NCBI RefSeq assembly: GCF_029867415.1
Contig: NC_081182.1
Span: 9,430,646 to 9,494,645, forward strand
Origin: Vicia villosa
Lineage: Eukaryota; Streptophyta; Magnoliopsida; Fabales; Fabaceae
DNA length: 64,000 nt
Reading direction: 5' to 3'
The notes under the pieces are model-generated. The model did not search any database. It was not told the DNA's origin and was given only the letters and a program-made list of their open reading frames with translations. The position numbers were made by a program, and so were the translations under genes. Below, in pieces: positions 3,935 to 55,095 of the stretch (positions are counted from its first letter, which is position 1; each line of letters starts with the position of its first letter).

Positions 3935-6690
3935 AAATCAATGCGACTGGCCAATAAGCATCAATTTGCTAATAAGAAAGTGATGGTGTGGGCGCGGGAC
4001 ACCTTTGGTAAGAATATATGTAAACTGAAGCTGAGTAATGATGTGAGGAAGTGATATAAGTCGGTCATCATAGGCATCACGAATTGAATGACAATCGACT
4101 TCGAAATTTTTGGTGCATTCGTGAAAGACAGGATTTGCAACAATTTGGATGGCAGTTGTATTATCGGCATAAAGTGATGTAGACTATGTTTGAAGAAATC
4201 CAAGTTCTGCCAAAAGACTGCGTAGCCAAATAATGTTCGAGCAAGCAGCAGACATGGCGTGATACTCAGATTCAACATAGAATTTATAGACTCTTGCTTG
4301 CTTCTTACTTTTCCATGAGATCAACGAAGAACCAAGAAACGTGCATCAACCAGTGACATATCAACGAGTGTTCGGACACTCTGCCCAATCGACATCACTA
4401 TAAGCATTCAATTTAGGAGTTATTCCATTGGGGAGAATTTACCACAGTGAGAGGTTCCTATCAAATAGAGAATTATACGATGAACCGCTGTCAAGTGAAG
4501 ATGTCGAGCAGAATGCATGAATTGACTTACTTGCTGAAAAAAATGATATGTCAGGACGAGTAATAGTCAAGTAATTTAGGCTACCCACAAGTTGTCGATA
4601 TAATAATGAATCAAGAAAAAGATCTCCATCATTGTCACGGTGATATTTAACATTAACCTCAAGGGGAGTATCTACCAAATTAGCCGATTGAATACCAGCC
4701 ATAGAAATCAAACCTGTAGCATACTTGTGTTGATGGAGAAAACTTAGAAAGAATAACAATATCATTCATGGAAGGAGAAACACAAGAAAACATAAACTTA
4801 TTATCAAAAAATGTCACATTCATAGATATGTGAAAATGATGGTTAGAGACATCATAACATACAAAGCTCTAATAAGAGTGGTTATACCCCATAAATGCAC
4901 ATTGAACAAACTTTTCTCCAAGCTTACGCCTTTCAAATGGAGGTAAGCGAACAAAACACACACACCCAAAAGTATGTAAAGCATTATAATCAGGATGAAT
5001 TTTAAAAAGACGAAAGAAAAGGAGTATCAAAATCAATAACCGTAGAAGAAAAAATGATTCATCAAGAAGACAGTTATGGAAAGAGCCTCCACCCAAAATT
5101 TGGATGATACGGAAGCTTGGAGAATCAAGGTGCGTGTCATATCAAGCAAATGACGACTCATATGTTCTACCATACCATTTTGTTGAGGAGTATTCAAACA
5201 AGATCGTTGAGACATGTTCCCTTTTTGTTGAAGGTATTCTTGAAACTCATGAGACATGTACTCACCACCAGAGTCAGAGCGAAAAATTTTAATGCTTGCT
5301 TGAAATTGAGTTTCAACATATGTCAAAAATTTCTTAAACATATAAACCACTTCAGATTTAGCACGAAGAAAATATATCCAAGTAAAACGACTATAATCAT
5401 AAATAAATGTGACAAAATATTTCTAGTGAGCATGAGAAACTACATAAGACATTTCCCATACATCACTATAAATCATCTCAAAACAAGTGGACGCACGATG
5501 AGCACCGGACGTAAAAGGAAGCAATTTGCTTTTAGATAATTCGCAAACGGAACATTAAATAGAAGCATTAGAAACAACATTTTTATTTCCCAACAAACCA
5601 ATTTTACATAAATGAGACAAAACATCACAATTTAGATGACCCAATTTTCTATGTTAATCCTCATAAGAATTCAAAACGCTATTACAAGCAAAAGATAAAT
5701 GATTAGAAATAAACTGCAGTCGAAATAATCTTCCCACTTTAGGCCCCTTCACGATCACCTTCCCCAACACTTGCTCCTGCACAAGACAACCAGCACGAGA
5801 AAAATTAACATTATAATTTTTATCCACCAATTGACCAACAGACAATAAATTGGAAGCAAGACTAAGTGATACAAGTACATCCCAAAAATTAAAGTTTTTG
5901 TCACCAATATTAGTGACAGATAAGGTATTACCATCAACAATTTGAATTTTCTGATTACCATGAAATGCTTGCACCGAATGATGTGTTGGTCGCGGAGGAA
6001 GTGTGGGACAATCAGATATAATATGACCTTGTTGCTTATAATAATTACATCTTTTTACTGCAGCTACGAGAAATATGTCCAAATTGTTTGAGAAACATTG
6101 AACATGTCTCATATCACAACCTTTACCTCTACTTTGAGCAACATATGCAAGGGCTAGAGGCTCCTTGAGTAATGAGACGTTGTTCCTCCCTTAGAAGTTC
6201 TCCAACACATGTATCCAAAGAAGCAATGGTATTTCTATTAAGCAAAGCATATCTTACGACCTCAAATTTTGGATGAAGTTTCATGAGAAACTGATCTCGA
6301 CTACTGGTGTTGTAGACCTCTAGGACAGTCACAAGAGAAGTCTTTGGAACATCAACATGAATAAGAGCAGGATGTTCTGTCCACAGATTCAAAAAACCAG
6401 AATAATATTCTTGGATAGAGAAATTACCTTGTATGTAATTGGTTATCTCTAACTCAAACTGAAAATGTTGGCTGTGGTGTCCTAGTTGTAAATACGTTTC
6501 AAATAGTTCCACATTTCTTAAGCAGTTGAAAATAAGCGTAAATTATTGATCATATAAGGATCAATAGTTCTGAGGATCCAAGTAATTATTTAAAAATCTT
6601 TGATTTCTCACTCATCTAATGCAGCTTTATCTGTTGGTGCCTTGGAGACGGCATCTAAGTGACTCCATAATCCCTTTCCTTTGACATAAT
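3935..6690 (-). pseudogene. decayed copia gag-pol remnants
   Basis: Domains appear on the minus strand in copia order but in several frames with stops. Gag core: 6690-6129 (IITWILRTIDPYMINNLRL, then FELEITNYIQGNFSIQEYY). CCHC knuckle remnant near 6050 reads CNYYKQQGHIISDC, with the second Cys replaced by Tyr. The GAG-pre-integrase part contains LLSVGQLVDKNYNVNF. Integrase core at 5350-4870 shows RSDSGGEY and TPQQNGMVEH. RNase H at 4765-3935 shows GSLNYLTITRPDISF, SLYADNTAAI and HECTKNFEVDCHSIRDA. Between integrase and RNase H only about 100 bp of reverse transcriptase remains. No product expected. Confidence 0.85.
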
Positions 6691-6777: not shown

Positions 6778-7340
<563 letters not shown>

Positions 7341-7609
7341 TGATAGGAAGCTAATCCTACCAAGACTATCAATTTAGGGTTCAACAATAAAAAGAGAAAG
7401 ACATTAAAATAAACTAAGAAAATAGAGAATAAAAATAAACTTTGATTTTTTTGATTGATCCCAAATGTCTCTATGAGACTACATTATATAAGACTCTTCA
7501 TGGATAATAATAATAACATAAAAGCCCAAACACTACTAAAAGCCCAATAACTATACTAATAATATAAGTTCTATTATTACCATCTAATTAATATAATGCC
7601 TTTCTATCA
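7341..7609 (-). repeat. 3' LTR of the gag-only element
   Basis: 269 bp with minus-strand ends TGATAGAAAGG...CTTCCTATCA. Compared by eye with the other LTR, the only difference is one extra TAA in a short TAA run. The long reading frame ends with a stop inside this LTR. Confidence 0.9.
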
Positions 7610-10136
7610 TTGCCGCGGGGTTCACATGAACCTTGTCCTCAAGGTTCGAAAATAAATATGAGAGTGGAGATATTATTCCCGGATCCCATTGGAGAACTTT
7701 CAGTGTTGCATCAGCTTTCAGTAAACTCAGTCGCCTATGTTGAGCCAAAGCAACTGCCAATGCTTCTTCTACCTTCAGAGAAGCCAATTCCCGCAAACCT
7801 TGCTCAACAAAAAGAATGTTCTTAATCTTTCCCGCAAACCTTGCAACTTTCCTTGTAGCTATGACATTAATCAAATTCCTGGTGATTAAATCATGGACAA
7901 TGGCCATAGCTTTTGTACCATCTTCACCTAAGTCGTGCAGTTCTGCCCACATATCAATGAGGACGGTAACAGGAATCCTCTGATCTTCAGGAAAAAATCC
8001 CATATCCATGAAGCACTCCTTCTGATTGATATCCTCCAATATATCCAAGCTTTGTTGAAGGAAACAAAGCAAGTTAGTAGTAGTAATATTAAATTCCAGA
8101 ATGGATTGACTTTGTAAAAACCTTTTCATATTTTGCCACTTCTCAAAAGGCTGCTGACGAAGTGATCCAGCAATGATCTGAAACGCTAACGGCGAACCCT
8201 TACAAGCTCTCACAATCTCGCGAACAAGATTTTGATCAGGCATGTATGAGCTGTTGTGATTCAATTGCACGAAATGAAGGAAAAGGGACTCTGCAGGACC
8301 ATAATCGAGCGGATCCAATTGGCATGGGGTGCCAAATCTTCTGAATGCAACCCTTGAAGTCACCAAAATCTTATAATCTAACATTTGGAATTTGAACTTC
8401 TCAACAAAGCCTTCCGGGTTAGGCCAAACATCATCCAAGACTAACAATTTTGGTTTTCTACCAAAATGCCTCAAAAGAAGTCCCAATCGGGTAACTGCTT
8501 CTTCATCGGTTTGAAACTCAGGCACACGACATCCACAATGCTCAAATAGTGTCTGTACAATGTTCTTCAAGTTGAGATTGTTTGAGACAGTAACAAAGAA
8601 AATGGTTACACCAAACTTGCCTTTGATTTGTGGATGCCAACACCGCTTCTTAGCAAGAGTGCTTTTACCAGAACCACCCAAACCAGTCAAAACAAGCACA
8701 GAAACACCATCTTTAACCAATTCCATCTTGAACTTATTCAGAGGCTCAACCATTCCCAAATACTCAGGCTCTTCCGGAGCACCACACAAACCCCTAACTT
8801 GATTCCCATCAAACTGACCCAAATTCTCCTTCCTCATCAAAATCTCCAAAATCCCATTCACCTTATCCAAAACCTCAATCAAATCCTTATGCGACATTGT
8901 ATCAAACATCTTACGAGCAAGCTTTACGCACCTATATCGCACACACATATCAATCAACGAATTTGAAAATCTAACATTGTCTCTGAAATCTTTCTTCATC
9001 GCAAGCCTATGTACGCACAGTCCAAGATCAAGTGCACCCATATGAGCACAAACAACAATGATAGCCATAACAATCATGTAATCAAGAACAACACCGGCAA
9101 TCTGCATTTCTTGAAAACACTCAAGAGCTTGTTCATAATAGTCCTTCTCGCGATCATAAATTTTGGTGTGGGGTGAAAGAAAATGCTTGTTCTTTGTGTT
9201 CTTGAAGTAAACAAAGATCATTAGACACATTAAATTTGTTTTAGTAGATGATATCATTGAAGGAAACAGGGGAAAGCTTGTACAAGAGTGGGGCAGCTTT
9301 TGTCCAAAAGCTGTTTGAGAGTGTGACTTTGTGTGGAGAGAGAGAAAGTCTTGGTGAATTAATGTGAGGGGTGTTAGAGAGGTACACGCAACCACTGTAG
9401 CAACATGTGGGACATTTTTTTGAATAAGTGGTTGTGATAAATTCTGCATAAATTGAGGGAAATTAAAAGGTGGATGATGGTTTTCAACGGATAAGAAGGA
9501 ATCTTTTTGTATTATGGGAGAGTGCACAGACTGACGTGCGACAGGTGGCAGGCGCGTGGGCCTTCTGTGACTGGCGTGCAGCAGGCGCGTGGTAGGCTTG
9601 AATTGGATCGTTGGACGATGAGTATGTGAGCTAGTGGAGAGATCAGGACCGTGTGATTTAGAATAGCTTAGATCATGCGTTTCTGAAGGGATAACACTAG
9701 ATATTTGAAATTTATTATATAGTAATAGTTGATATATTTTTGGAATTACCTTTTTCCCAAAATTACATAGTGGTGAGAGGTGGATGAATTCATTCTGCAA
9801 ACATTGATATGGTGGCTCTTGTAGGGAAATAGATGTAGTTGTTTTTACTGCGTGAGATTTCATCGTAGGCTGATCAAATATTAACTCCGGTGGTGTCTCC
9901 GGTGGTAATTTCTCTCCTTGTGCTTCCTCGGAGATATTATAGATCTTGGTTCTTGTAATGGTGGTTTTAATGTTGGATTTCGATTTCATCTTCAAGAAGC
10001 TTGGATCTGGAGGTTTTAATGGTGGTTTAAAGGGTGGTAACTCTGTTTCAGCTGGGAGCGGCGGCGGAGTTACCAACGGTTGATCATGTATCAATGTTAG
10101 TGGTGGGAGATTAGAAGTTGATGAAACTAAACCCAA
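7584..10136 (-). CDS. chimeric PPR-NB-ARC ORF captured in a retrotransposon
   Basis: 850 uninterrupted codons. Residues 1-325 are Pro/Ser/Thr-rich, probably element-derived or non-coding sequence read through. About 330-415 resembles pentatricopeptide repeats (ALECFQEMQIAGVVLDYM, GALDLGLCVHRLAMK, SNSLIDMCVRYRCVKLARKM). PPR proteins bind organellar RNA. About 420-800 is an NB-ARC ATPase of the NRG1/At5g66900 helper immune-receptor type: P-loop GLGGSGKST near 482, kinase-2 LLVLDDVW near 563, KILVTSR, GSPLAFQII, and CFMDMGFFPEDQRIPV. The RPW8 domain and leucine-rich repeats are absent. The last residues look like a gypsy pol tail and end in the LTR. No introns are visible, which fits capture through RNA. 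Host ancestry of both parts is clear; a function for the chimera is not shown. Confidence 0.75.
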   Translation of the reverse strand: MGLVSSTSNLPPLTLIHDQPLVTPPPLPAETELPPFKPPLKPPDPSFLKMKSKSNIKTTITRTKIYNISEEAQGEKLPPETPPELIFDQPTMKSHAVKTTTSISLQEPPYQCLQNEFIHLSPLCNFGKKVIPKIYQLLLYNKFQISSVIPSETHDLSYSKSHGPDLSTSSHTHRPTIQFKPTTRLLHASHRRPTRLPPVARQSVHSPIIQKDSFLSVENHHPPFNFPQFMQNLSQPLIQKNVPHVATVVACTSLTPLTLIHQDFLSLHTKSHSQTAFGQKLPHSCTSFPLFPSMISSTKTNLMCLMIFVYFKNTKNKHFLSPHTKIYDREKDYYEQALECFQEMQIAGVVLDYMIVMAIIVVCAHMGALDLGLCVHRLAMKKDFRDNVRFSNSLIDMCVRYRCVKLARKMFDTMSHKDLIEVLDKVNGILEILMRKENLGQFDGNQVRGLCGAPEEPEYLGMVEPLNKFKMELVKDGVSVLVLTGLGGSGKSTLAKKRCWHPQIKGKFGVTIFFVTVSNNLNLKNIVQTLFEHCGCRVPEFQTDEEAVTRLGLLLRHFGRKPKLLVLDDVWPNPEGFVEKFKFQMLDYKILVTSRVAFRRFGTPCQLDPLDYGPAESLFLHFVQLNHNSSYMPDQNLVREIVRACKGSPLAFQIIAGSLRQQPFEKWQNMKRFLQSQSILEFNITTTNLLCFLQQSLDILEDINQKECFMDMGFFPEDQRIPVTVLIDMWAELHDLGEDGTKAMAIVHDLITRNLINVIATRKVARFAGKIKNILFVEQGLRELASLKVEEALAVALAQHRRLSLLKADATLKVLQWDPGIISPLSYLFSNLEDKVHVNPAAMIERHYIN

Positions 10137-10195
10137 ATCTGTATAGTTTTTGTGTGTCTCATTTTTCTGTTTGAACCTGCAAGCATCAAATGACT

Positions 10196-10715
10196 TCAGA
10201 GTTGGATATGGAAAAAAAATTCTACTGCATCTGTAACCTCTTTTGCACCTTTGTGTTCTTCAACAACAACTTCTTGTTCTGGAAAAATGATTTCGATGGA
10301 TTTCATAGATTTTAGATCCGGCTCTTTCAAGAGTGACGAAGCAGATTCTTTTTCTTTCTCCTCAACAGAATAATTGGTTGAATATAAGGACTCCGTTGAT
10401 TCATATCTTGGTTCCTCTTCTTCATCCTCAAGATGTAAAATGGGTCTCCACTCCGGCTTGAAACGCCATAACAGTGCTGTCGTAAATGTATCCCAATTAT
10501 ATATGCGATGAACACGACACCACCATATCCACCATGTGAAAGCAGAACCTCTCAATGCTCCAACAGCTTTTAAAACCTTCAATGATTTGGGTGTTTCATG
10601 CTCCTTGAAAAATTTCTCCAAACACAAAATCCACCAATATGCATCTTCTTCCCCATCAAACAATAATATTGTCATGACTTTAATCGGAAGTGAGATCGAA
10701 AATGAAAGCACCAAT
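10196..10715 (-). CDS. gypsy-type retrotransposon gag protein
   Basis: Open frame reading FDGEEDAYWWILCLEKFF, then LKVLKAVGALRGSAFTWWIW, then NWDTFTTALLWRFKPEW, the usual layout of the plant retrotransposon gag domain (PF03732-like). A Glu-rich tail follows, and the stop lies at 10196. The frame is open up to the LTR; the likely start is a Met just before the ILLFDGEEDAYWW segment, near 10676. About 160 residues, shorter than an autonomous gag and lacking a CCHC knuckle. It probably supplies particle protein for this non-autonomous element. It lies about 60 bp upstream of the large chimeric frame. Confidence 0.8.
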
Positions 10716-10981
10716 TGATAGGAAGCTAATCCTACCAAGACTATCAATTTAGGGTTCAACAATAAAAAGAGAAAGACATTAAAATAAACTAAGAAAATAG
10801 AGAATAAAAATAAACTTTGATTTTTTTGATTGATCCCAAATGTCTCTATGAGACTACATTATATAAGACTCTTCATGGATAATAATAACATAAAAGCCCA
10901 AACACTACTAAAAGCCCAATAACTATACTAATAATATAAGTTCTATTATTACCATCTAATTAATATAATGCCTTTCTATCA
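10716..10981 (-). repeat. 5' LTR of the gag-only element
   Basis: 266 bp, matching the 3' LTR by eye apart from one missing TAA unit. Directly inside it the minus strand reads ATTGGTGCTTTCATTTTC, a candidate primer-binding site whose tRNA I cannot assign. Confidence 0.9.
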
Positions 10982-11314
10982 TATACACACACACACACAC
11001 ACACGACCTATCATTGCACGTGATTTTTTAATGTGCAACAAATTTGCTAATACAAGTGGCAGACAGGAGCAGTAGCAATCCCAAACAATAACTACTATCA
11101 TCGAACAACGAATTGATAAAAATAATTTTGAGATACACACTAAATTAGTTCAGATAAACACCAAATCAAGATGACAGCACAACAACGCTACAAGGTTTCG
11201 ATTTCCGAAGAAACGATTTCAAAACAACCACAATTTTGAGAGCAAACCAGTGGGATGTCGCTGTTCAACCAAGATAACAAGACTTCGCTGGTTTGATCGA
11301 ACCTTCTGATATCA
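10982..11314 (-). other. 5' untranslated leader of the short-LTR copia element
   Basis: Sequence between the nested gag-only element and the copia 5' LTR. Contains an (AC)n run at 10983-11004 and, next to the LTR, the minus-strand primer site TGATATCAGAAGG (11302-11314), resembling the initiator-Met tRNA complement. No coding sequence is recognised. Confidence 0.6.
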
Positions 11315-17263: not shown

Positions 17264-19762
17264 CTGAACTCATCCTACTCGAGAATGTTCAACTGTCATC
17301 CACAGCAATGAATCACCAAAGAATATAAAATTCAGAAACACGCAATAGCCAAATAGCGAAAAGGATTTGAATCAACAAACAGGCATCACTGAATACTAAC
17401 TTCCTATCCTTTTTCCCTCTTAATTATTTCCGCTAACACAAAAACAAGTTGGTACCTTTCCAATCATAAAAGTGGATCTGTAAGAGGACAGTTACAGAAG
17501 AAAAAGGAATATGTACATTGCTAATTTGACTCAATGTCACAGTTGAAAATAGAAGAGTAGAGAAAAATACAATTTGTTTTCCTCGTTGAAAAATACAATT
17601 TGTTCACTAAAAAATTGTCCAGTTGTAGCAAATCATATATTAAGAATAAATAAACTTAATATGAAAGCCAAAAAGGAAATACTAGTAACTTGGTCCAGAA
17701 CATCTACTATTGTACCATAATGATTGGCCATAAATTGTTTTGAAGGCCTGTAGAAGAACATTTACCTATTTATATAAGATTGCATTGTAGGCCATAAATT
17801 GGGAGAAATTGAACCTACTCCAAACTTACAACAGCATACCAAAAATGATAATAGATCTTGCCATTATTGTTAATTTCAATGTGCACTCAACAGTTTAATA
17901 TCTTCATTTCCTGTTTAAGCAACCAAAACAAATAACACATTCAATCAGCATTCTAAAAGGATGTAAAACAGTTGTGAGCATTTCAAGCACAAGACAATCA
18001 TGAAAACCAAAATACAGATACTGATGAAAGTAACCTTTTAATTAAAGTGCAACTTTTCGGAGCACTAAGAAAGACCAATTGTAAGCAAATGCAAAGACCT
18101 GTTTGAAAGTTTATCTACTGACCTGCAATCTAAATATTCCTGGAGACCCCTTTTACGCTTTAAGATTTCCTTAAATCTTATTTTCTCAACCGGACCAGCT
18201 TCATGGGCTTTCAATCCGTAGGATGTATACAACCACCGGAAACAGCAGATTTTTTTCAGCAAATCACCTGAAACAAAATTTTGCACTTCATCCTGTGTAA
18301 GTGTGTATCTATAATATTCTGATCACCGAAACTTCTACCAGGGACAAACTTAGTTTCAGAATACACACCTATATCTGATTCTGGTTGGCATCCAAAGAAC
18401 CACATAACTCCATGTCTTGAGGATCCCTGTAATACTTTTTCAGAAACCTGATGGTTATTTTCACACAGCATATTCTCGGATGATTTAATTTTAGCCAATG
18501 GCTCGTAGTCACAAGGGGAAAACTTTTCTTTGTCCTTGGAAGTAAAATCTCTGCATTTTGAAGGAATATTACACAATTCTACTTGGTCATCAGTCAATCT
18601 TTTCAGCTCACCCTCAATAATTGGAGACACCCTTTCCCCCATTTTAGGAAGAGACATGGTGTCAGTGATTTCTTCAACTTCATGCAATATGACAGAACAC
18701 TTCTTTAAACCATCATTGATAATCATTTCTTGTAGTGTGGCCTTTTGGTCAGAAGAAGAACAAATGTCTTCAGATCTTACACAGGTCAACGGTTGGCTAC
18801 CTCCATAGCAGACGTTGGCTGAAAAACAGCGATAAGCTAATGGCCCGTCAAGAATGTTTGAATTGTGAATACCATCAGCAGTTTTGCTGGCACTTCTAGA
18901 GTCAGGGCTCAACCTGTCATCCAAATTCTGGCCCCCACTGTCACATTTCTGCTCTGAACTGACAGCAGTACAAGACTTGCTAACAAAACTAGATTGTGGT
19001 GTTCGTAACATTTCCGGCAAAGAATCTCCCATTGTTTCTTCAGAAGAGTGTTGCAGACCAGCATTAAGCAAAACACAAACCCCTTTTTCATCTTTTGGAG
19101 TATTTCTAAACTCCTGTGCAACCAAATCACCTTCAGACATGTCACCCCATCCTTGATTCCCTTCAGTGCCAAATCCACATTAGGTGCCTCTACTTTCATA
19201 TCCTTATCCAAATCAGAACCATTATCCCCACCACCCCTCCCCTCACATACACCGTCCTTAATCAACAAAGATCATTCATCCAACCTTCATACTGGCATAA
19301 AACGTTCAAAGACCCATCAGAAGAGTCCGCCGCCACATTCAAAGTAGACACATTCCCTCCCGCATCTCTAGAACCCCGATCTCTCTTAGGACCCTTCAAC
19401 CTCTTCCGAAAGCAAGCTACGGTATCATCCATACCTCCCAAATCCTTCCGTGCTACATCAACAAATTCCCCCAACAGCATTCTCGCCTCCTCCATTACCG
19501 CATATCTCCTCCTCCGTCCCCAAGCAAATCACACAACGCGGCTTCCTTAGTTTAAATATCAGCTCATTATCATCGGAATCGGTACCATCCTCCACCTCTT
19601 TAGTCCTCTTATTATTACTCCCAGAAATCATATCTTCACCATCCATATTTTCACCACAACCCTAGCTTTCCAACAAAACCTTAACCCCTACTTCAATATC
19701 CCAATGCGAAAAACACCTCATGCAAACCATAATTTTCCACTTACCAATCATAATAAAGTTAA

Positions 19763-19932
19763 GGGTTAATAGTAATTCACCCTCCTGTAATGTTAGCGAA
19801 TTTTGCTTTTCCCCCCTCCCTACCTTTTCGCAACGGTTTTTTCAAAAAAACCGTTGCCAAAACCTGTCTTTGGCAACGGTGGGGGTAAACCGAAACACGC
19901 TCATATTACAGGGGGTAAACTACTATTAACCC
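19763..19932. mobile_element. MULE-type MITE in the LDL3 copy
   Basis: 170 bp with terminal inverted repeats GGGTTAATAGTA...TACTATTAACCC and a perfect 9-bp target duplication TAAAGTTAA (19754-19762, 19933-19941). The functional LDL3 copy has the empty site, with AAAGTTAA present once near 54270. An inner inverted repeat built on CAACGGT is present. The 9-bp duplication points to Mutator-like transposase. Confidence 0.85.
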
Positions 19933-20374
19933 TAAAGTTAAAAACCATGCCTCAACCTCAATCCTAATCCGAGCATGAACATCAATAGATACATAATAAA
20001 CCAACTTAAACCTAATCCAACTATCTCAACGAAAATCACAGCATAAATACTCCCAAACACAAACAAAAATTCCAATAATCTTAACTAAATGTTGCAGTTA
20101 CAATCAATCAGTGAGTGGAAGAGCAAGAGTGAAGTACATGTAGTGAGTGAAATTGGTTGCTGAATGTTGAAAGCAAAACCGATAGGAAGACTTACACAGA
20201 GCACAATACACACTGTGGTGCAGTAGTGAGAATAGATTGAAAGAGAGTTTGTCAGAGGTGGAGTCTTCCTCGGCAAGGGTGAGTCTGATGATGACTTGTA
20301 GAGGGTGTTTGGGGGAGGAACCGTTTCTCTTATAAATTGTGCCCACCAAGGACTTGGGTGAGGAAAAATAATAG

Positions 20375-20600
20375 TAAAATAAAATAGTATAACAAAAAGT
20401 TGTGCCCACCAACTTCTCTACCCATCACAAAAAGTTTGGTAGTATACCTTCAACCAATCATAAAGTTCCATTTAATTTTAACACATTTAATTAATTATAA
20501 AATAGTACTATAATTTTTCGGTTGTTTCCAAGAAATTTTACATTGAAGGTAACTTTACCCAACTTTTTGAGTTGGGTAGATAAGAACTCACCAAAATAAA
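20375..20600. mobile_element. possible MITE upstream of the LDL3 copy
   Basis: Segment absent at the matching position of the functional gene (54715). The ends are loosely complementary (TGCCCACCAACTTCTCTACCCA and TTGGGTAGATAAGAACTCACC in inverted sense). It could be an insertion here or a deletion in the other copy. Confidence 0.4.
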
Positions 20601-21194
20601 ATTATCAAATTTTTTTACACAAAATTTTCAATATTAATCACTATTTTTTCACACTTTCAATTTATATTACTATCTTCATTTGATTTTATTTTTGATTGAT
20701 ACTAGTGTATATTTAGTAGATGTGACAAGATCTAGCATTGGAAATTATAAATTGGTTTATAAAAATTGAATCTATACCCAAATAAGTTTTAAATTTTTGA
20801 TTTTTAATGGAGGGTGGATGATTTTACTTGTAAAAACTTTTGACTTTATCAATTTTGTTAGAAAGACACTGTCCCTCTTCATAAACTCTTAACATGTTTT
20901 TGGCTTCTTTTTAATAAAAGTGTTTCGGATATAAAAGTTAAGTTTAACATTTTTTGACGAAAAAAGTTAAGTTTAACATTACTGCAAGATAAAAAGTAAA
21001 TTTTAGATGTTTGCAAGTCATGCATGCTCAAAAATTTATTCTAACTATTTCTATTGATGGTTATGTCAGTATTTGTCACCGATAGTATAGAATATCGTGT
21101 TATTCTTATATATTGTCTATTTGTCTCATGATTCTATTATTTATTTTTATGATGAGGTTTGTCTTATTTTTCGTAATGCGTGCTTAATACCTTT

Positions 21195-27749: not shown

Positions 27750-29933
27750 ATGGCAGACCATCTTGACAGGGTTATACATGAGAGGGTTGCACAGCATGCA
27801 TGCGTGCGGCGTGAACGGATGCGTGTAGTATCACAGGTGGCGGATGGAACTACTTTCCAATACAGGTACCTGATACACCCGATAAACCTGCTACATCTGT
27901 TCCAGTCGAGCCGTCTCCATCCTTTCCAGTTGACGGGCCTTCTTCGTTCGTTCCAGTTGGGAGGGCTACTCCATCTATTACATCATCACGGAGGCCTCGC
28001 GATGATGCAGAGGGTTCCTCACAGATGTCTGCCACCTGCAGACGTCGACGGGGTAGTTCTTCCACATATGTGCATGTGCCAGTGACGGATGCTCCGATGC
28101 TAGTAACGGATGTTGCAGGATCTTCGGTACAACCATCTGCTGAGCTACGCGAGGATGATCCGGTGCTGGAGTTGTTTGGTACCCGCAGGGTCCTATAGAT
28201 TCGTCCCTACTAACAGGGTATACAGATCACTCGACTAGGCATTTCTGGGAGCAGAAGGTAAATTTTCTTTGTTTATTACTTATTATTATTTTTATTCAGA
28301 TAATGACTTTGCTTGAAAATAACAACCCCGCCCAGAAGATTGCTGCTCTCGCGCAACCTAACGAGTCGTGGTTTCGGGATGCACTCGTAGCTTCTAGTTT
28401 GAGCGACCTTTGCACGGTCGGCTACCAGACGATTCATAACGAGATGTTGATGGAATTTGCGGAGAGGTGGAATCCAGAGACCTCGTCCTTTCATCTTACT
28501 CACGGTGAGATCACCATTACTATGGATGATATTGCATGCCGGCTGCATCTACCTATCAGGGGTATCCTACTTAGTCACGGTAGGCTGGCGAAGGAGGAAG
28601 CGATGGAGATGCTGTTAGAGGAGATGGGGGTTGATCCTGATGATGCGCTTGAGGAGGTGGAGAGAACTTGCGGGGCACACGTGAGGTTTCACACCTTGTA
28701 GGGGATATATGATACGGAGCTTACAGCGGCACAACAGGCTGCTGGTGACGAGGCAGAGGCTAATATACACAGAGAGTGGGTGCTGAGATGTTACTTTCTA
28801 TATTTGATAGGCACTTAGCTCTTTGTGGACACGAGCTCTTTCTACACCGACGTCGTTTACCTGACATACTTTTCGGACATTGCACGTGTCCGTAAGTACA
28901 ACTAGGGAGTGGCTACACTAGCCTACACCTACCACCGACTAGGAGAGGGATGCTTGTGGAACACGAGGACTGTGGCTGGTAGTTGTACCCTCTTAGTGGT
29001 AACAAACTTTTATCCTTCTACATTTTCTCAGAGTTTATTATATATTTGTAATAGTATGTTTGATCACCATGTATTTTTTTCAGGCTTGGATACTACAACA
29101 CTTCCCTGATATTATTGGTTGGGGAGAGGTGTCGGGTTACACTGAGGACGTGCCATGTGCTAGAGCCTATGCCCCTCAGAGGGAACCGAGTGCCAAATCC
29201 TAACAAGTTTTGTCTTGACTGCATGGTTGCTAAGGACATCCACTTTGACTACTATGCTGATCACCGTGAGACGGCTCCGTTTGATGAGATCGTTCTATAT
29301 TCTGAATGGTTGGCTGCCACTTCGACCATCATTATCTGTTATCTTCCGGAGCGCGTCATGCATTAGTTCGGCTACCAGCAGACGATACCTCGCCACCCTT
29401 CTGAGTCCGCTCCTATCTCCATGACTCGTCGACACCTAGATGATATCTTTGCAGACTGGGAGCACCATTTAGTTCCTGTCGAGGCTCGGGCGACGACATC
29501 AGAGAGGAACCGGAGCTGCATTGAAGGGTACATCACCTGGAACTACAAAGTGTCCCACTCATACATGCTTCCCACCGCACCTGGATCACCGTCCAAACCA
29601 GCCCACGAGGAGATTCTGTGGGCTCATCAGGCTGAGATGGACCATACTCAGGATGTTCTTCCTCGGTGTCGTGAGATAGTTATTATGACGCGCGCAAGCA
29701 TTGCCGATGGTTTCTTTTCCAATAGATATGCTGGCTTGCGTCTTATGGGGGGTATCCTTACGGTGGCAGAGGGGACATTTTTGTATTGTAGAAACCGTTC
29801 CAGGACAGGTGGGCCACTCGATGCTATAGGAAGAGTAGCTAGTAGACGACGCGGTGGACGTGGAGGCGGTGCTAGAGACAGCAGAGAGGCTCAGGATGAT
29901 TCAAAAGTTATGGCCCATCACTCAAAAACATGA
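27750..29933 (+). pseudogene. plant mobile domain (MAIN-like) transposon gene
   Basis: Plant mobile domain proteins are encoded by MULE-type and some retroelements, with MAIN as the domesticated form. N-terminal exon 27750-28257 is Pro/Ser-rich and frameshifted. Exon 2 (about 28303-29009) starts MTLLENNNPAQKIAALAQPN and contains MEFAERWNPETSSFHLTHGE, ITITMDDIACRLHLPIRG, then in-frame stops after VRFHTL and before LFVDTS. Exon 3, from 29084 after TTTTTTCAG, has AWILQHFPDIIGWGEVSGYT, VPNPNKFCLDCMVAKDIHFD and YSEWLAATSTIIICYLPERV, a stop, and an intact frame 29421-29933 ending in an Arg/Gly-rich tail (RRRGGRGGGARD). At least four disablements. Confidence 0.8.
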
Positions 29934-37878: not shown

Positions 37879-39610
37879 TTTTTTTTTGAATAAGGAACTT
37901 TACTAAACTAAAAAATTAGGAATACAAGGCGATCCTAATATCCAGTCAAACAAGACTACCAAGAGGAAAAAAGAACCCAATCACACCATAAGCCTAACTA
38001 TGTGATTCTTAAGGTCCTTACAATACCAACCCCTATACACAATGTTATCAATAATATCATTCAAGACACGATTTTTATCTATGGTTTGCCCAAAACACAA
38101 CCTATTTCTACAAATCCAAAGGCCATAAATGATTTCAGTAGTAATAAGCTTGAGTAACTAAGCCCTCTAACCTTTACCCGACCCATGCTTGATAATCCAC
38201 ATAATCTCTTCATCCCACTTATTTGCCTTGTGAGTAATATGAGCCCAATGCAAAACATCTAGCCAAATATTCTACAAGGTAACACACTCAAAAAACAAAT
38301 GATTGAGAGTTTCCTCATGCAGACAAAATGTTCAGATGCTATTATCGACCATGCAAAATCTTAACAATCTTGCTTTTGTCGCAAGCTTATGATGACAATT
38401 AAGCCAAAGCACAATTCTGGCTCTAGGTCTAGTAGGGTTATACGATAAAAGCTTGCACCAGTTAACATCCACGCTGTTGAAAAGATTCAAGTAAACCAAC
38501 TTACAATTAAATTTACCTTTCAAATTCATGTCATTCCAAGTGTTTGAATTGGCATTGATAAAGTCCCTTTGTAGTAGAATGTTACGCATAATCCATGTGT
38601 TATCAACCTTTACCTTAGCAGCCAAGATGTCATTGTTTTTTATGTAATATGCATGAACCTATTTCACCCATAAACTATCTGACTTATCACAAATATTCCA
38701 CATAAGCTTCAACATCATGCACTAGTTCCAAATGGTCAGATTAATGATCCCCAACCCACCTTTCTTAACAGGTTTACATACCTCAAACCACGCTACGGGG
38801 CTCTTTCTACTGACTGTATCTTTACTTATCCAAAAAAAGGAGTGGCAGATCGACTCATCTTCTTAATGATAGCCTAAGGGAGAGGAAAGAAAATCATACA
38901 ATAATTAGCCACTGCAAACGATATACTCTTAATTAACTGGAGACGACCAGCATAACTCAAGAGCTTCGAAGACCAATGACTGATCCGATCAACACTTTTT
39001 TCAACAAGACCCAAATAATGAATGGATAACTTTTTGCAAGTGAGAGGGACACCTAGATATCTAAAGGGAAGGGAACCTTCAAGGAGGCCAGAAATTCTAA
39101 GGATGTTCATTCTAGTCACAGGATCTACTGAACCGAAATAGATCTTGCTTTTTGACGTATTGAGCTTCATCCCTGTTGATAAAGAGAATTTGTTGAAGGC
39201 CTCAAGCAAAAGCTCAACAGATATCACATCCCCTCTAGAAAAAAGTAAAATATCATCAGCAAAGATGAGATTAACCAGATGCAGCTTCTCACACTTTGAG
39301 TGGTGATTGAAATTCGGGTTAAGTTGCATTTGAACCATACAACGATGCATATATTCCATGACAATAGAAAAAAGGTAAAGGGAGATAGGATCCCCTTGCC
39401 TAATACCTCGATTGGCTTGCAAAATTTGAGAAATAGAACCATTCAACTTGAATCTGTAAGAAACAGTCGACAGTGCAACCATAACCCATTTGATAAATTT
39501 AGAGGGAATACCAATTTCATACATAATGGATTCAAGGCCTTGCCAATTAATCATATCATAAGCTTTCTGCATATCAATTTGAAACATGCACCTAGGGGGC
39601 CACCCGCTCT
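37879..39610 (-). mobile_element. L1-type LINE fragment (reverse transcriptase)
   Basis: 5'-truncated non-LTR retrotransposon on the minus strand. A T run at 37879-37889 is its poly(A) tail. The RT part at 39597-38874 begins CMFQIDMQKAYDMINWQGLE and contains RGIRQGDPISLYLF, LIFADDILLFSRGD (the FADD catalytic motif) and FRYLGVPLTCKKLS. Downstream, with stops, is the zf-RVT region (RPRARIVLWLNCHHKLATKA, LNHLFFECVT). The endonuclease and ORF1 are missing. A dead copy; the target duplication is not evident. Confidence 0.85.
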
Positions 39611-45153: not shown

Positions 45154-48100
45154 TTAAGATTTCACATCTGGTTTCATTTCCATGTGTCTCTCGATCAATT
45201 TGTCCACAAAAGGTCGAATCTGCATGTGTTAAGCATCCAGCCCAAACTCAGTGACGATTGAAAGAATTGATGGTTAAAAGCAAGCAGATAATCATTCCAA
45301 AATTAGGATTATTGCACAAATTTACAATAACTAATGCCAAAGTACCTTATTCTTCCGCTTGAAATCTAGAAACTCGCGAACAGTCATGGCTTTATCCGCA
45401 TCTGTGGATTGCTCCATGACCTGAAATTCAATCCCAGTAACATAAGAAATGGACAAAAGTGTTGACAAAGGTATACTCTAGAAAGGAGAAGTAAAGAATT
45501 GACGGGAAAAAATCACCTTGGCTATACTTTTCTTCATTATAGCCTTGTATGCATCCCTATCTAGTTTCTTTGCCTTATAAAGAGGCATAAGTAAAGATGC
45601 AACATAATCCGCAACCGCCTGTTTGATACAATCTGCTCCTCGAGAATGACTTTTTGAATCATGAGAATGACTTTTTGAATTCTCCTTATTCACAGTAACC
45701 TGTGAAATTGAGCTGTCATTTGCCACTCCATCATGCTTCCAGCTGGGTAACCTTGAACAGGCATTTGAATCCTCTTCATGTTTCAAATGTATGGCTGGAT
45801 TAGAAAAATCAGAACCCGCTGCCGCTGCTTGAGATTGCCACCTCTCTATGGCATGGTAATCTTTTACTCCCTCACCATTAGCCGAGTCAATCCAAGCTTT
45901 GGTGTATAAACTACTGTCCACGGCAACACTTTCTCCCGAGTGCTCTCTGAAATTCAAATGGCTTGCGATCTCAGTTGAATGACTCCGCTGTGACAGGTTA
46001 TCAGCTGACATTCTGGAATTATCAAGGTTAACACAAGCAGCAGAGAAATCAACAGACCAGTCCCTAACTCTGCAATTTCTAGAATCAATCTCTGAAATAC
46101 AATCTTGCTTTCCCGACAAGATACCACCAGACCGTTTTTTCCTAATATCATTCTCACCATTTTGTGAATATTGCTCCCGACTCTTAAATTTGTGGAATGA
46201 GGGTATCTTCGGAAGCTGGAGTTGCGTATTGCTCCTAACTTCAGCAGAAGTATATGCCTGCAATGAACAAAAACTACTGAATCTTTTGTGGAAACATGCA
46301 ACCTGTCAAGAGACAGTTAATGATCTTTGGATTCTTAATCAGTAATCGTGCATTATAATGCATGGATACTAGTACTATTTGATATACACAAATTTGATCT
46401 TTTAAAAACTACAAGAAAAACTGACAAATAACAATACAACAATTTATGTGTGAATTGTGCATTCTCTATAGTGTAAACTTGTTTCTGCTGTAAACATACT
46501 CTACCATCAATAGAAGTCAGTTTCTATAATTAAATTGTAATTTGGTACCTGTTTCTAACACGCATACAGTATTTTAGCACATGTTTATAGAAGTATTAAT
46601 TGATTTCAAGAAGCGCAATAAACATACCAACAGATTATTAGATTAGTATCAAAGCTTCAGAGAAACAAACCTCAGCCGCGGCAAGTGCTTTGGCACGAGC
46701 AGCTTCTGCAGCAGCAATAGCAGTTTTTTCTTCCTCGGACATAGCACAGTGGGTATCCTTCATCTCAGTGTCTATTGTTCCTGTCGAACCTTGGGATTTG
46801 GAAGAACTGATATCACGCCTTAAGTCATTTGCCGCTTGCTGATTCCCTTGCTTGCCATGTGATTTCTTCATTTGTACAATGGAAGCTGAATTAATTGCAG
46901 GAGTTAATATGCTCCCTTTATCCTCAAAAGTACTATGATGCATACTCAGAGGTGGTTTTCCTGATGCTGGGTCGTTAATTGATTTTCTCTTCGATATATC
47001 TCCAGCATTTGCCTGCCTTGACAGCTTTCGTCCTCCACTAGATGCCTTTTCCTTGCGGAAGACTTCAAGCCATACGCTAACCAACTGGCTTGCTATAGCA
47101 CGAATATCACGGCTAGTATGTACACAAACTTTTTCCTTTACTGTTTTTCCAATGCCTACACCAATAACTGAAAAAGTTAAGCCAAAAAAGTGAGGAAACT
47201 GTGGATAACATATTAAAAAGCCATTTGGAAGAGGGGTATATCTAGTGAGAAAGGGGCTTCTTATGTGAGAGTGAGGAACAATTATTAACCTTTAGATCAA
47301 AATAGATGGTTTAGATTAAAACACTCATTTTAATTAACACATGTGTCGCATAAAAAACTCTTTCACATAAGAGCTCATTTGGAATTATCTTATGATAGAT
47401 AGTAATTGTGATTTGTGAAGTGTTTAGAATGTCTTAAAGATTATTTCCCAAAATACCCATTAGCTGTTTTCAACCTATTTTCACAAGTTTTCAACTCAGG
47501 ATTAATCCTCATTCCCTCTTCGAATATATAAATAGTTTATACATAAGCCTTGATATAATAAGCGCTTACAGAATAAGTGCTTCATTGAGTAATTCACCCA
47601 ACTCTTCCTTAACATATAACCCCATCAGGACAGAATACTCTACCGAAACATAAACATATATATCACTAGATAAGAAAGACACCAACAAAGTTGATGTCAA
47701 ACTAAAATTATTTTTTGAAACATAATACACATTTTCATGCATAACACATCACCAAAACAATAAACATAGATACCTGATGAGCGCACAGCAAGTAAATCAG
47801 TCGAAACAAGCACAAGAAGACGCACACAGTGCCGCAAGAGTTGGGTGCCATCCTTCCCCATTGAGTCCTGTTTAAAAACATTAACCATGAAATACAAATA
47901 TACAATTTAAGAAAGTATCTCACCAAAGATAAAGATGTTTTACTTTTTCATGGCAAAGGGGGCAGGCACTATAAATAAAATTTGAACAAATTTGAAAATA
48001 ATACATCCAATGAGACAGTAGTACCAGTATCCATGAATTGAGAATGCTTAGCCCCCTTTTACTCCCAGCAAAGGACTTCAAGTTTTCAACAGGAAGACGT

Positions 48101-51100
48101 AGCAACTGTTTGGCAACATGCAAGCGCCCAGCATTGGTTTTTGCATTTAGGAACAAGTCCCTTAGTAAAGTTTCCCGGCTTAAGAGTCGAGCACCGTCCA
48201 AAGACTTCTTGTACAATATGTTAGAAAGCTGTGCTGCATCAAGTCTCTTTACAATGTCCCTAACTTCTTCTCTTTCAGTATCTGACTGTTTCAGTGCAGC
48301 CTCCACCGCCTCCACCTCTGCCGTATAATCATTTCCAGTGCTAAATAAGTCAATTAAGCGCACAGCCTCTCGGAGTCCACTCATCATTGCACCACCAACT
48401 GTATCCGGGTGCTCTTTGCAGGTTGCTTCACCAGCAAAAAACAGACAGTTATCAACTGGCCTCCCTAATATATCATAGTCTTCTCCCGATGCTCCAATAG
48501 CAACATAAGAGTAAGCACCATAGCTAAACGGATCCCTACCCCAATCAGTCACAACATATGCAACAGGATCAGGTACTGAAGCCTCCCCAAAAAGTTTTCG
48601 AAGAACCGTTAACGCATGGTTGGCGTGATCGGAAGAGCTTAAATTCTGACCATCTATGGCTGCTTTCCCAACCACTAATGCTATGAGGACCGGAGCCCCC
48701 ACTGTCTTCCTGACATTCCAGAACATAAAGCAGTGGCCTCTTCTGCTTGTCTCCTCAGCTGTTGCTCCAAAGTAGTCAACAGCATCATCCCAAAACACAC
48801 TTGGAAATTCCAAGACCACTTTATTGAGAACTCCAAATCCAAGACGCTCAATGGAAGAATATTTCCACGGGGGTAAAGGTGGAGAGAATTTTATAGTTTC
48901 AGCCTTCAAGCAGCCCAATGGAACAGTAATCAGAACAGCATCTCCAAAGAACTCATTGCCATTTGATGTAGAAACTTTGACTTTATTACCCGGGCCTGAT
49001 TCTGTGCTTCCATAAGACACATTTGTTACAGCATGGTTCAAATGGATGTCAAGCCCTTCTCCTAAAGATTCGACAACAGTGCTGTAACCCCCTTTAATCA
49101 TACAGTGAGCTCCTCCAAATCCTCCATACACATCGTCTTGATTCCAGTAGGGAAGAGAAACCTCCTTCAGCAGAGCAGCGCATCCATACTCCAAGTTAGC
49201 AAAGTGCCAATCCATAACCCTTCTTTCGAGGGGACTCAAGATCTCTTCCATTTCTCTGCCATGAATTATACCTCTTTTCGAACCAAATGAACCATCTGCG
49301 TAACTATTTTGTCTGTTATTTCTTCGAGAGCGTTCTAAACGGCGCCTCTTGAGGGCATATTCTAAACCATCTTCAAGGGACATTCGCATGGCCTGGTCAC
49401 CCTTCTGGGCAACAAGCAATACCATGTCATCAAGAAGACTATTGTATTCAGCTTCCAGTGCTTCATCCATATCTACAGGAACTTTTTGTCCCATCGCTAT
49501 GTCATATAGAGGACAGTCACTGTTTAGCACGGTCAACTCAAGACCCAACTGAGCACAAACCAATGCAGAAGGATCTGGTCTTCTCTCAGTAGCCACATCA
49601 GCCTCAACACCAGTGATTATACTAGCACCAAGATCCACAGGGACAGAAAGAGATGAGCGGTCTGTAAATACTCGACCCCCTATCCTACTCCTTGCCTCAA
49701 GTACAGTTACAGGAAATCCCAGACGTTGCAAGTGGCGAGCAGCAGTTAGACCAGCAGGACCGGCTCCAATGACAATCACTCTCTTTCTAACCTCTGAATC
49801 AGGATTCACAATATCACCTATTTGATCACCCAAGACAGATTTAACACAGGTAGACTCATTGCTTTGCTCAGAACTGTTAGCATTCCCGTGTATAATTTCA
49901 CTGAATCCATCCTGAATCCCACCTTTTTCCTGGCAATCATCACTCTTTCTTACTTCATGCTGCGTCATGTTTGATATATCCAGTGTCACCACATTAGCAT
50001 TCCTCCTGTCTTCTGTAGCATCAGTTGCCGGGTCTTTATTACCAACTATAAGACCGCACTTAACTTCTACAAAAGCATCTGATTTTTTAGCCTGACCAAC
50101 AATAAAGGAGACTCCATCTTCAGAGTCAGCAACAGAAGCATTATAACTTTCTTCATATCCTTTTTCTCCTACAAGTGTATAAGTATGCCTTGCACTATTT
50201 TCAGCATTGTCTTTTAGAGAAGCAATTCCAACATTTATATAACCCTGGGAAAAAAATGATAGAGTTCCGGTGATATCAATATTGACACAGTATGTTTTTG
50301 CCCAAAAAGAAAGCTATTGTGTGTTAATAATGACAAAAAAACTGGAAAAGTATACATTTAAATGAGCAAATAAAATGACAATCCATAGCTGAATAACATG
50401 AGGAACAGACTTACACATTGATCAAGAAATGTGTAGATATCCCTAATAAGAGAAGAGCGGGGAGGTTCATCCTCAGAAGGAGTATTATGAACCCCACAGT
50501 CAGCAAGAAGCAAAATACGAGTGATATCACAGCCCCAAAGAGCTAGGATCTGATTTCTGCAGTATATAAATTAAAAGATGAAGAATTTGTTTTTTTGAAT
50601 AAAAACAAAGAAGTATAATTTATAAGAAAAGGCTTTCCTTTTTTTAGCAAAACATATCTGTTAAAAATAAACATAAGCCTGAAGCTGAATCCAGTATATC
50701 CTAGCTTAAGAAACATATGTATTTCACAGCAAAGCTAAGCCGTTTCTAAAGATGCTCACGTGAATCTTTTAAGATTCATTATTTAAAAGAATTTTGCTTG
50801 AGTGCAAGAAGCAAAAAGAAACTAAAAATTAAATCCCGTCAAATAAAAGAATAAATCAACACTAAAAGCTAATCAAGCAAAAAATAGCAACGATGATACT
50901 GTGCAACAAGCAATGTGATAAAATAGCAACCGTAACGAAGTTCTGAATAGAAATAAGAAACAATAAGTAAGGATAGCAGCCCATGAACTTGAATAGAGTG
51001 AACATGACAGACAGCCCTCACAGCAATACATCCTTAAAATGTGAAAGTAAAAAGATAGCAATAAAGAAACTTTTTCAAAAATAAAAAAACAACAAAGGAG

Positions 51101-54100: not shown

Positions 54101-54172
54101 AGAATCAATACCATCCTCCATCTCTTTAGCCCTCTTATTATTACTCCCACAAATCATATCTTCACCATCCAT
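45154..54172 (-). CDS. LDL3: LDL3-type lysine-specific histone demethylase
   Basis: FAD-dependent amine oxidase of the nuclear LSD1 family; Arabidopsis LDL3 removes H3K4me2 along transcribed genes. Minus-strand exons: 54172-52158, 50556-50415, 50244-48025, 47867-47774, 47167-46671, 46257-45517, 45420-45346, 45219-45154. All junctions are GT-AG and frames match, giving 5850 nt, 1949 residues. Residues 1-660 are low-complexity with a KTKKRRHG basic patch. The SWIRM domain spans exons 1-3 (FKEILKRKGGLQEYLDCR, NQILALWGCDITRILLLADC, then GYINVGIA). The FAD motif VIVIGAGPAGLTAARHL is near 875 and FAGEATCKEHPDTVGGAMMS near 1320. After it comes a helical TFIIS-N-like segment (LLRLPVENLKSFAGSKRGLS) and an Ala/Glu helix. 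The C-terminal region (VASLLMPLYKAKKLDRDAYK) resembles the RNA polymerase II-binding SRI domain. The start is the first ATG with family-like sequence. No disablement seen. Confidence 0.92.
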
Positions 54173-54199
54173 ATTTTCAACACAACCCTAGCTTTCCAA

Positions 54200-54530
54200 C
54201 AAAACCTCAATCCCTACTTCAATTTCCCAATGCAAAAACACCTAATGCAAACCATAACTTCATAATAAAGTTAAAAACCAAGCCTCAACCTCAATCCTAA
54301 TCCGAACATGAACATCAATAGACAAATAATCAACAAACTTAAACCTAATCCAACAATCTCAACGCAAATCACAGCACAAATACTCCCAAACACAAACAAA
54401 AATTCCAATAATCTTAATAAAACGTTGCTGTTACAATCAATCAGTGAATGGAACAACAAGAGTGAAGTACATGTAGTGAGTGAAATTGGTTGATGAATGT
54501 TGAAGGCAAAACCGATAGGAAGAGACTTAC
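54200..54530 (-). other. 5' UTR intron of LDL3 (candidate)
   Basis: A strong donor, CTGT|GTAAGTCTCTTCC (minus strand, GT at 54529-54530), lies downstream of the TATA-like box. AT-rich, T-biased sequence follows to near the start codon, with possible acceptors close to 54200. Transcript data are lacking, so the intron is inferred. The same donor context exists in the degenerate copy near 20190. Confidence 0.45.
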
Positions 54531-54655
54531 ACAGCAGAATACACAGTGTGTTGCAGCAGTGAGTAGATAGAGAGAGTTTGACGGAGGTGGAGTGTTCCTC
54601 GGCAATGGTGAGACTGATGATGATTTGTAGAGGGTGTTTGGGGGAAGAACCGTTT

Positions 54656-54665
54656 CTCTTATAAA
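54656..54665 (-). promoter_or_regulatory. TATA box of LDL3 (candidate)
   Basis: Minus-strand TTTATAAGAG about 480 bp upstream of the start codon and 120 bp upstream of the candidate UTR donor. The surrounding sequence is the most conserved non-coding part shared with the degenerate copy at 20320-20345. Confidence 0.5.
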
Positions 54666-55095
54666 TTGTGCCCACCAAGGACTTGTTTGGCTGAGGGAAA
54701 ATAATAGTAAAATCAAATTATCAATATTAATCACTTTTCACTTTCAATCTACTACATTAGTATCCTCATTTGATTTTATTTTTGATTGATACTAGTGTAT
54801 ATTTACTTGATGGGACAAGATCTAGCCTTGGAAATAAATAAATTGATTTTTAAAAAATCAAATCTATAAAAAAATTAAATTTTAAAATTTTGATTTTTAA
54901 TGGATGATGGAAGATCTTAGTGATACAATTCTAACTTTTGATTTTAGTAGTTTTATTAGCAAGACAATGACCGACTTTATAAAGTCTAACATGTTTTAAC
55001 TTCTTTTTTTTAATAAAATTTAAGTTTAACATCACCGCAGGACAAAAAATAATTTTTAGATGTTTATGAGTGATGCATGTTCAAAAATTTTAAAT

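Follow-up and report, generated by a model that had tools for sequence, protein, structure and literature searches.

Structure and age of the element

The window, a stretch of 64,000 nucleotides from the vetch Vicia villosa (NC_081182.1, positions 9,430,646 to 9,494,645), contains a complete long terminal repeat (LTR) element of 3641 bp that runs from position 10981 to 7341 on the minus strand and carries spliced pieces of several host genes, among them a pentatricopeptide repeat (PPR) gene and the NB-ARC domain of an NRG1-type immune receptor. The original prediction, made from the letters of the DNA alone, had correctly located an LTR element at 7341-10981; the flanking target site duplication (TSD) that it described was borne out as well, with the sequence TATAC. 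The parts of the element are as follows.

10982-10986, no strand: TSD TATAC, right copy, within a CA microsatellite
10716-10981, minus strand: 5' LTR, 266 bp, TGATAG...CTATCA
10196-10762, minus strand: gag-like frame, first ATG at 10675, weak Retrotrans_gag match
7584-10259, minus strand: long mosaic frame, 891 codons from stop to stop, first ATG at 9989, stop within the 3' LTR
9616-10136, minus strand: Pro-rich linker after gag, pieces of which (9750-9922) are common to relatives
8895-9615, minus strand: PPR-A segment, upstream sequence plus a PLS-type PPR
8886-8913, minus strand: recombination zone, a 19-bp PPR-motif stretch followed by a sliver of PPR-B that ends where NRG1 similarity begins
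7841-8886, minus strand: NRG1-type NB-ARC, from the P-loop to before MHD
7712-7833, minus strand: piece of host gene 3, intron joined at 7772/7773
7694-7721, minus strand: putative eIF5B-type sliver, judged from L004, where the same stretch continues into eIF5B-type sequence
7610-7693, minus strand: tail relic, LQWDPG...NLEDKVHVNPAA, common to relatives
7341-7609, minus strand: 3' LTR, 269 bp, to which the 5' LTR is identical apart from one ATA repeat unit
7336-7340, no strand: TSD TATAC, left copy, within a TA microsatellite

The LTR pair has TG..CA ends and shows no substitutions. At a rate of 1.3e-8, as used for LTR dating in PMC5664825, three LTR substitutions correspond to 0.43 million years. 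Since the window LTRs lack any substitution, the insertion is recent, and the element is very young. The TATAC duplication is weak evidence by itself because it lies in TA and CA microsatellites; two relatives have 5-bp TSDs outside microsatellites, GAAAG (C1:168.06M) and GAGTA (C17). As predicted, a Pfam scan of the two long frames reported no pol domains. With TG..CA LTRs, a 5-bp TSD and no detected pol domains, this is a non-autonomous LTR retrotransposon. As to a primer-binding site, two bases past the 5' LTR we read a stretch that starts with TGG, to which no tRNA was matched; as to a polypurine tract, the sequence ahead of the 3' LTR (7610-7640) is not a clean purine run, despite the recent insertion. 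A relic before the 3' LTR had also been described, and this tail is indeed common to relatives (the coding tail is the same in L015 and L016); its name as a tail of pol is our presumption.

The element starts with a gag-like frame, as had been proposed, but the Pfam score of this gag is weak (E 0.39 in the window and 0.004-0.05 in relatives, all below the curated cut-off). The predicted 850-codon frame (7584-10136, counted from a TTG) was confirmed as a fusion of PPR and NRG1-type NB-ARC by Pfam and by sequences of solved structures. For the NB-ARC, Pfam gave E 3.1e-23, and the best solved relative is At5g66900, which is of NRG1 type (E 1.1e-55, residues 427-787). The PPR scored 19.8 bits in Pfam, below the cut-off of 25, and matched a PLS-type designer PPR with E 4.3e-40. 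Stretches that we take to be P-loop, kinase-2 and GLPL-type motifs are readable in the frame, and PPR-A is presumably CLB19-like, a label confirmed by no tool. In 300 trials under a first-order Markov model of the internal region, used as a null, frame length averaged 103 codons and reached at most 227; the antisense maximum is 126. Because the null did not exceed 227 codons, the 891-codon frame is not expected by chance. The gag and the chimera lie in different frames owing to a 14-bp length difference, which is also found in L008 and not in L084.

Spliced host transcripts were captured

An NRG1-type gene at C2:133.827-133.829M, the translation of which reads as an N-terminal region, an NB-ARC and a leucine-rich part, matches the window element in three exon pieces at 88-90% identity. 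Both introns of this gene are missing from the element, with exact joins at 8620/8621 and 8216/8217, and similarity ends at 7841, before the MHD region. Positions 7712-7833 match two exons at C6:154.359M at 92-97% identity, again with exact removal of the intron; this gene 3 has no confident Pfam name, and one upstream frame is weakly DUF2917 (E 0.0014). In another element of the family (L055 with L075), an EDS1 stretch is 96.5-98% identical to the intron-bearing gene C315:659.1-660.3k. The intron inside this match is exactly absent from the element, and no LTR match was found in 3.7 kb around the gene. Introns of three host genes (NRG1, gene 3 and EDS1) have thus been exactly removed, and therefore spliced RNA was captured, as the original prediction had held. 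Of the parental genes that it proposed to look for, the NRG1-type gene was recovered and the PPR-A parent was not; C3:29.87M (L034) matches PPR-A in three pieces at 76-85% identity.

Across 342 codons, the EDS1 piece differs from the C315 gene by 20 synonymous and 10 non-synonymous changes, giving a Ka/Ks of 0.13, lower than that of NRG1 (0.33). The EDS1 value may reflect either a donor allele outside the assembly or constraint. The EDS1-carrying stretch at C4:138510718-138519708 is present in two near-identical copies about 7.5 kb apart.

The PPR/NB-ARC chimera is a recombinant

A whole-element genome search, in which 40 of 1906 first-look candidates were scored (copy counts are thus lower bounds), returned a second chimera as well as PPR-only and NB-ARC-only relatives in the same genome, as the original prediction required. 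The second chimera (C3:180.697-180.701M) is about 94% identical, has frameshifts of its own and has an LTR age near 0.8 million years. Among the matches listed, C4:130.06M, C7:80.54M, C17, C6:85.72M, C5:6.03M, C2:180.13M and C53 carry PPR-A only, and C1:168.06M, C3:187.63M, C261, C4:108.54M, C3:183.10M and C1:36.20M carry the NB-ARC and have no PPR-A match. Several family copies have no or few LTR differences, indicating recent movement.

In L004, L005 and L019 the NRG1 piece is the same but is preceded by another PPR gene (PPR-B). The window element and the second copy follow PPR-A as far as the 19-bp PPR-motif stretch, in which the PPR-A and PPR-B lineages share 13-14 consecutive identical bases, and continue as PPR-B/NRG1 beyond it. 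The PPR/NB-ARC fusion is therefore a recombinant of two capture lineages, which recombined within the shared PPR-motif stretch. This replaces the earlier idea that two transcripts were captured into one element: a PPR-A lineage was joined to a PPR-B/NRG1/gene-3/eIF5B lineage, and the element has more than two host pieces, two further genes being represented. Downstream, L004 continues into eIF5B-type sequence (25 residues, E 1.6e-4), of which the window keeps a sliver. At the NRG1/gene-3 junction the parents share GAC, 3 bp; at the PPR-B/NRG1 and gene-3/eIF5B junctions the comparison for microhomology covers one parent each. The PPR-A/PPR-B junction is shared by two copies and the NRG1/gene-3 junction by at least seven.

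Between the window element and the second chimera, Ks is 0.94 in gag and 0.11 after it (linker and PPR part), and the gag of the second chimera is of another type. The linker part 9616-9750 is present in the window and C4:130.06M and missing in C7_80, C2_180 and the second chimera. The jump in Ks together with the missing linker part indicates that the 5' part of the window element was swapped after the chimera had formed. The PPR-A-only relatives C7_80, C17, C6_85, C5_6 and C2_180 have about 153 bp extra at 9266-9271.

A family of multi-gene elements

Mosaic content was identified by Pfam or solved-structure sequence searches of long frames only. We recognised at least 14 architectures with a host piece, of which 10 combine at least two, and 19 host genes are represented across the 14 (a tally, not a census): PPR-A, PPR-B, NRG1, gene 3, eIF5B, ClpB, DNMT1, CKAP5, pTAC3, DDX54, TOPLESS, amino-acid kinase, EDS1, aldo/keto reductase, aromatic lyase, ARI1, glutamine amidotransferase, serine carboxypeptidase and RSN1_TM. 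The PPR-B and eIF5B identities have weak scores. A single element holds up to 4-5 host pieces. Five of the 14 architectures have one sense frame (827 to about 1,100 codons) that extends from the 5' leader or gag until close to the 3' LTR. Lineages have pieces in common, and in many elements, though not in all, one sense frame stays open over long stretches:

L028 and L031: frames of 980-983 codons (980 also in the C2:180.13M copy; broken by a 1-bp gap in the C6:85.72M copy) with weak gag, PPR, a pTAC3 piece (E 1.4e-16) and a DDX54/DBP10 piece (E 2.5e-6)
L015 with L035: 916 codons with ClpB (E 1.6e-15), DNMT1 (E 1.3e-64) and NRG1-type pieces
L016 with L036: 827 codons with DNMT1, PPR and NRG1-type pieces
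L019: PPR-B, NRG1-type and CKAP5 (E 4.7e-7) pieces in separate frames
L051 and L053: TOPLESS zinc-finger and amino-acid-kinase pieces; L051 plus its continuation, about 1,100 codons
L055 with L075: EDS1 (E 2.5e-54) within about 850 codons
L058 with L078: aldo/keto reductase, aromatic amino acid lyase and ARI1-type pieces; gag broken
L080: glutamine amidotransferase, serine carboxypeptidase and RSN1_TM pieces; a 500-codon frame separate from gag

Pfam and solved-structure searches gave no host name for the sequence after gag in L060, L061, L063 and L064, and L052, L057 and L058 have only short frames over gag. We take the AA_kinase match to be P5CS, the GATase match PurF and the CKAP5 match MOR1, names confirmed by no tool; the L015 zinc finger is presumably STOP1-like, likewise unconfirmed, and its Pfam zf-C2H2 score is below the cut-off. 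L035, L036 and L004 form a second subfamily, in which a different Pro/Tyr-rich leader precedes the same NRG1/gene-3 cassette; this leader had no Pfam match in L035 and L036, the two that the scan covered. A 13-kb candidate for an autonomous partner, C308, was rejected, as its middle translates, by our own reading, to Ty1/copia-type coding sequence.

Open frames appear better preserved than the protein sequence

In six internal regions, sense frames of 344-973 codons stand against antisense frames of 75-152. We counted stops against a substitution null in 12 pair tests. Alignments of diverged copies have large gaps, and the tests of C17 and C7_80 against C2_180 cover the gag-to-PPR stretch only. 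For C2_180/C17, 1 stop was observed against 14.5 expected (P below 1/5000). The counts were 3 against 8.9 for C7_80 (P 0.015), 0 against 4.7 for the second chimera (P 0.007) and 0 against 2.8 for C53 (P 0.05). Tests against the window gave 0 against 2.4 for C17 (P 0.08) and 0 against 2.9 for C2_180 (P 0.05).

For the NB-ARC we computed Ka/Ks for 21 pairs, in which pairs with the two shortest pieces are incompletely covered. The window gave 1.09 (second chimera), 0.83, 0.78 and 1.18 against four other element copies and 1.07 against a further 105-codon stretch; values among other copies were 0.51-1.23, and pairs with the short C1:36 piece gave 0.47-2.96. The NB-ARC copies have no stops except one in C261, and frame-shifting gaps occur in C3:187, C261 and C1:36. 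Leaving out pairs with three or fewer differences, Ka/Ks of gag plus linker among eight copies was 0.39-0.81, except for three C53 pairs at 1.90 (8 differences), and after gag it was 0.52-0.88. Between lineages, then, there are fewer stops than the substitution null predicts, and amino acids change with little constraint. In our reading of these sequences, the frame appears to be kept open more than the amino acids are conserved.

Origin of the family and alternative explanations

We favor, with a probability of about 0.7, the explanation that the window holds a young non-autonomous Ty3-type element of a vetch family that repeatedly captures spliced host mRNA and whose open frame is selected. 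Host mRNAs would be co-packaged in particles provided by an autonomous partner, where reverse transcriptase would switch templates. Co-packaged element RNAs would also recombine, giving rise to the PPR-A/NRG1 chimera and later providing the window copy with another gag. Copies with a frame from gag to near the 3' LTR would be favored. The likely reason is that an RNA with a long frame stays in translation and escapes nonsense-mediated decay, or that the gag fusion has to be produced. As a result, mainly sense, native-frame pieces of host genes would persist, and as proteins the host domains would be mostly passengers.

A number of observations weigh against this explanation. No autonomous partner was found. 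Nine of the 14 architectures lack one frame from the leader or gag to near the 3' LTR. The window element is one of them: recent as its insertion is, its gag does not share the frame of the chimera. A frame of at least 650 codons over gag was present in 7 (L046, L047, L048, L051, L053, L055 and L060, the first three being one element type) of 20 gag loci surveyed, and 13 were without it; the survey covered 20 of 30 loci within the fetched stretches, with L065-L074 outside it. The sense bias rests on frame lengths, since the Pfam and structure searches were limited to long frames. The pair tests share sequences and so are not independent, and for the NB-ARC alone stop depletion is not significant (P 0.11-0.32, 6 pair tests). 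Microhomology from both sides was seen at two junctions only, one of which is 3 bp and possibly due to chance. The PPR part is more constrained (Ka/Ks 0.25-0.78), and the EDS1 value of 0.13, against the only close EDS1 gene found, hints at protein constraint or at a donor missing from the assembly.

Some of these points suit neutral passengers, captured by template switching without selection on the frame, with long frames that would merely reflect recent exon capture. An NB-ARC with Ka/Ks near 1 and no significant depletion of stops, and a long frame missing from 13 of 20 gag loci, are what such passengers would show. We consider this doubtful, as frames stay open across several unrelated pieces and 1 stop remains where 14.5 are expected at a Ks of about 0.3 between lineages. 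The low Ka/Ks of the EDS1 and PPR parts would instead fit selection of the captured domains as proteins, that is, decoys or new chimeric immune genes through which an NB-ARC or EDS1 piece would affect the pathway of its parent. The motif-like stretches readable in the window frame agree with this, as does the capture of both NRG1-type and EDS1 pieces, the solved relatives of which occur together in entry 8yl6. Yet the NB-ARC evolves at a Ka/Ks of 0.78-1.18 between the window and four element copies, and gag starts in a different frame from the chimera. Of an NRG1-type RNL receptor, the element has the NB-ARC before MHD only; RPW8, MHD and LRR are absent. Most of the other 17 captured genes have, to our knowledge, no link to immunity. 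Protein-level selection of the cargo is thus distinctly improbable, and a decoy function, which the original prediction had suggested, is unlikely.

Element transcripts might also, as the original prediction had proposed, be a source of small RNAs that feed silencing of the parental NLR genes. The NB-ARC shares 131 of 1022 24-mers and 162 of 1025 21-mers with the NRG1-type gene, and the longest exact run is 56. Such sharing is expected of any fairly recent capture, and we see the small-RNA role as an unlikely one. Capture at the DNA level or an assembly artefact might be suspected, as the genome is heterozygous and one third of the assembly is unplaced (PMC10659084). However, exact intron loss from three parental genes, recurring junctions, TSDs and near-identical LTRs make this very improbable.

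The explanation by repeated mRNA capture extends to a more tentative rule, possible but short of even odds, by which an element RNA propagates best when one frame spans gag to the 3' end, whether for its translation or to escape nonsense-mediated decay, so that the family acts as a continuing exon-shuffling engine. If this rule holds, host coding pieces would be collected in sense and native frame and swapped between lineages, and new multi-domain proteins would be laid out across the genome.

Relation to known elements

The closest known system is Bs1 of maize, an LTR element in which three host-gene pieces form a hybrid frame (PMC13317346). Like Bs1-like transducing retroelements, the vetch element has a hybrid frame to which several host genes contributed spliced pieces. 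Unlike what is described for Bs1, the vetch family has at least 14 architectures and 19 host genes, and pieces are exchanged between lineages. Retroduplicated NLRs within LTR retrotransposons are described from pepper, tomato, potato and rice, and the same source mentions two or three genes in single elements (PMC5664825). These elements resemble ours in that an intron-less NLR is captured by a mostly non-autonomous LTR element; whereas those NLRs are reported under purifying selection, the NRG1-type fragment of vetch is part of a multi-gene fusion with an inter-copy Ka/Ks near 1. A maize survey lists 425 LTR elements with host gene fragments from at least 189 captures and, under its conditions, reports none that combines fragments of several standard nuclear genes (PMC2774510), in contrast to 10 of 14 vetch architectures with two or more. 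Pieces acquired by transduction usually share the orientation of gag-pol (PMC7264820).

Multi-gene capture by one LTR element is rare in the literature examined, with Bs1 in maize and a mention for pepper. No report of the vetch family was found in open-licence PubMed Central papers, to which the search was limited; the kind of element is already known, and the family-wide serial, recombining form was not found described there. TR-GAG elements have gag without pol. The vetch element resembles them in a gag-like frame, weakly matched, with no pol domains detected, and adds a long host-derived frame after gag. A young, serial and recombining family provides a natural series for capture order, junctions and frame selection, and makes it testable whether transcript surveillance shapes retroelement cargo. 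For annotation, the family is a warning that in vetch pieces of NRG1, EDS1, DNMT1 and others may be cargo of a transposon and not genes in their own right.

Other features of the window

Beside the element, between TA runs, an inverted repeat at 6893-7289 has two 167-nt arms that are 98% complementary, with a 63-nt spacer, and looks like a foldback or miniature inverted-repeat transposable element (MITE). A large block is duplicated at 17299-20912 and 51303-55008 (81-90% identity in pieces), and its 51-55 kb copy has a 697-codon frame with no Pfam match. Adjoining that copy is a flavin amine oxidase frame at 47920-49992 (Amino_oxidase, E 5e-92), perhaps, as we assume, an LSD1-type demethylase gene. 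The window also contains a weak pol beta-barrel fragment (5654-6112), a plant mobile domain frame (28303-28701; PF10536, E 4e-12), a reverse transcriptase frame (38874-39587; RVT_1) and a copia-type gag (58442-58864).

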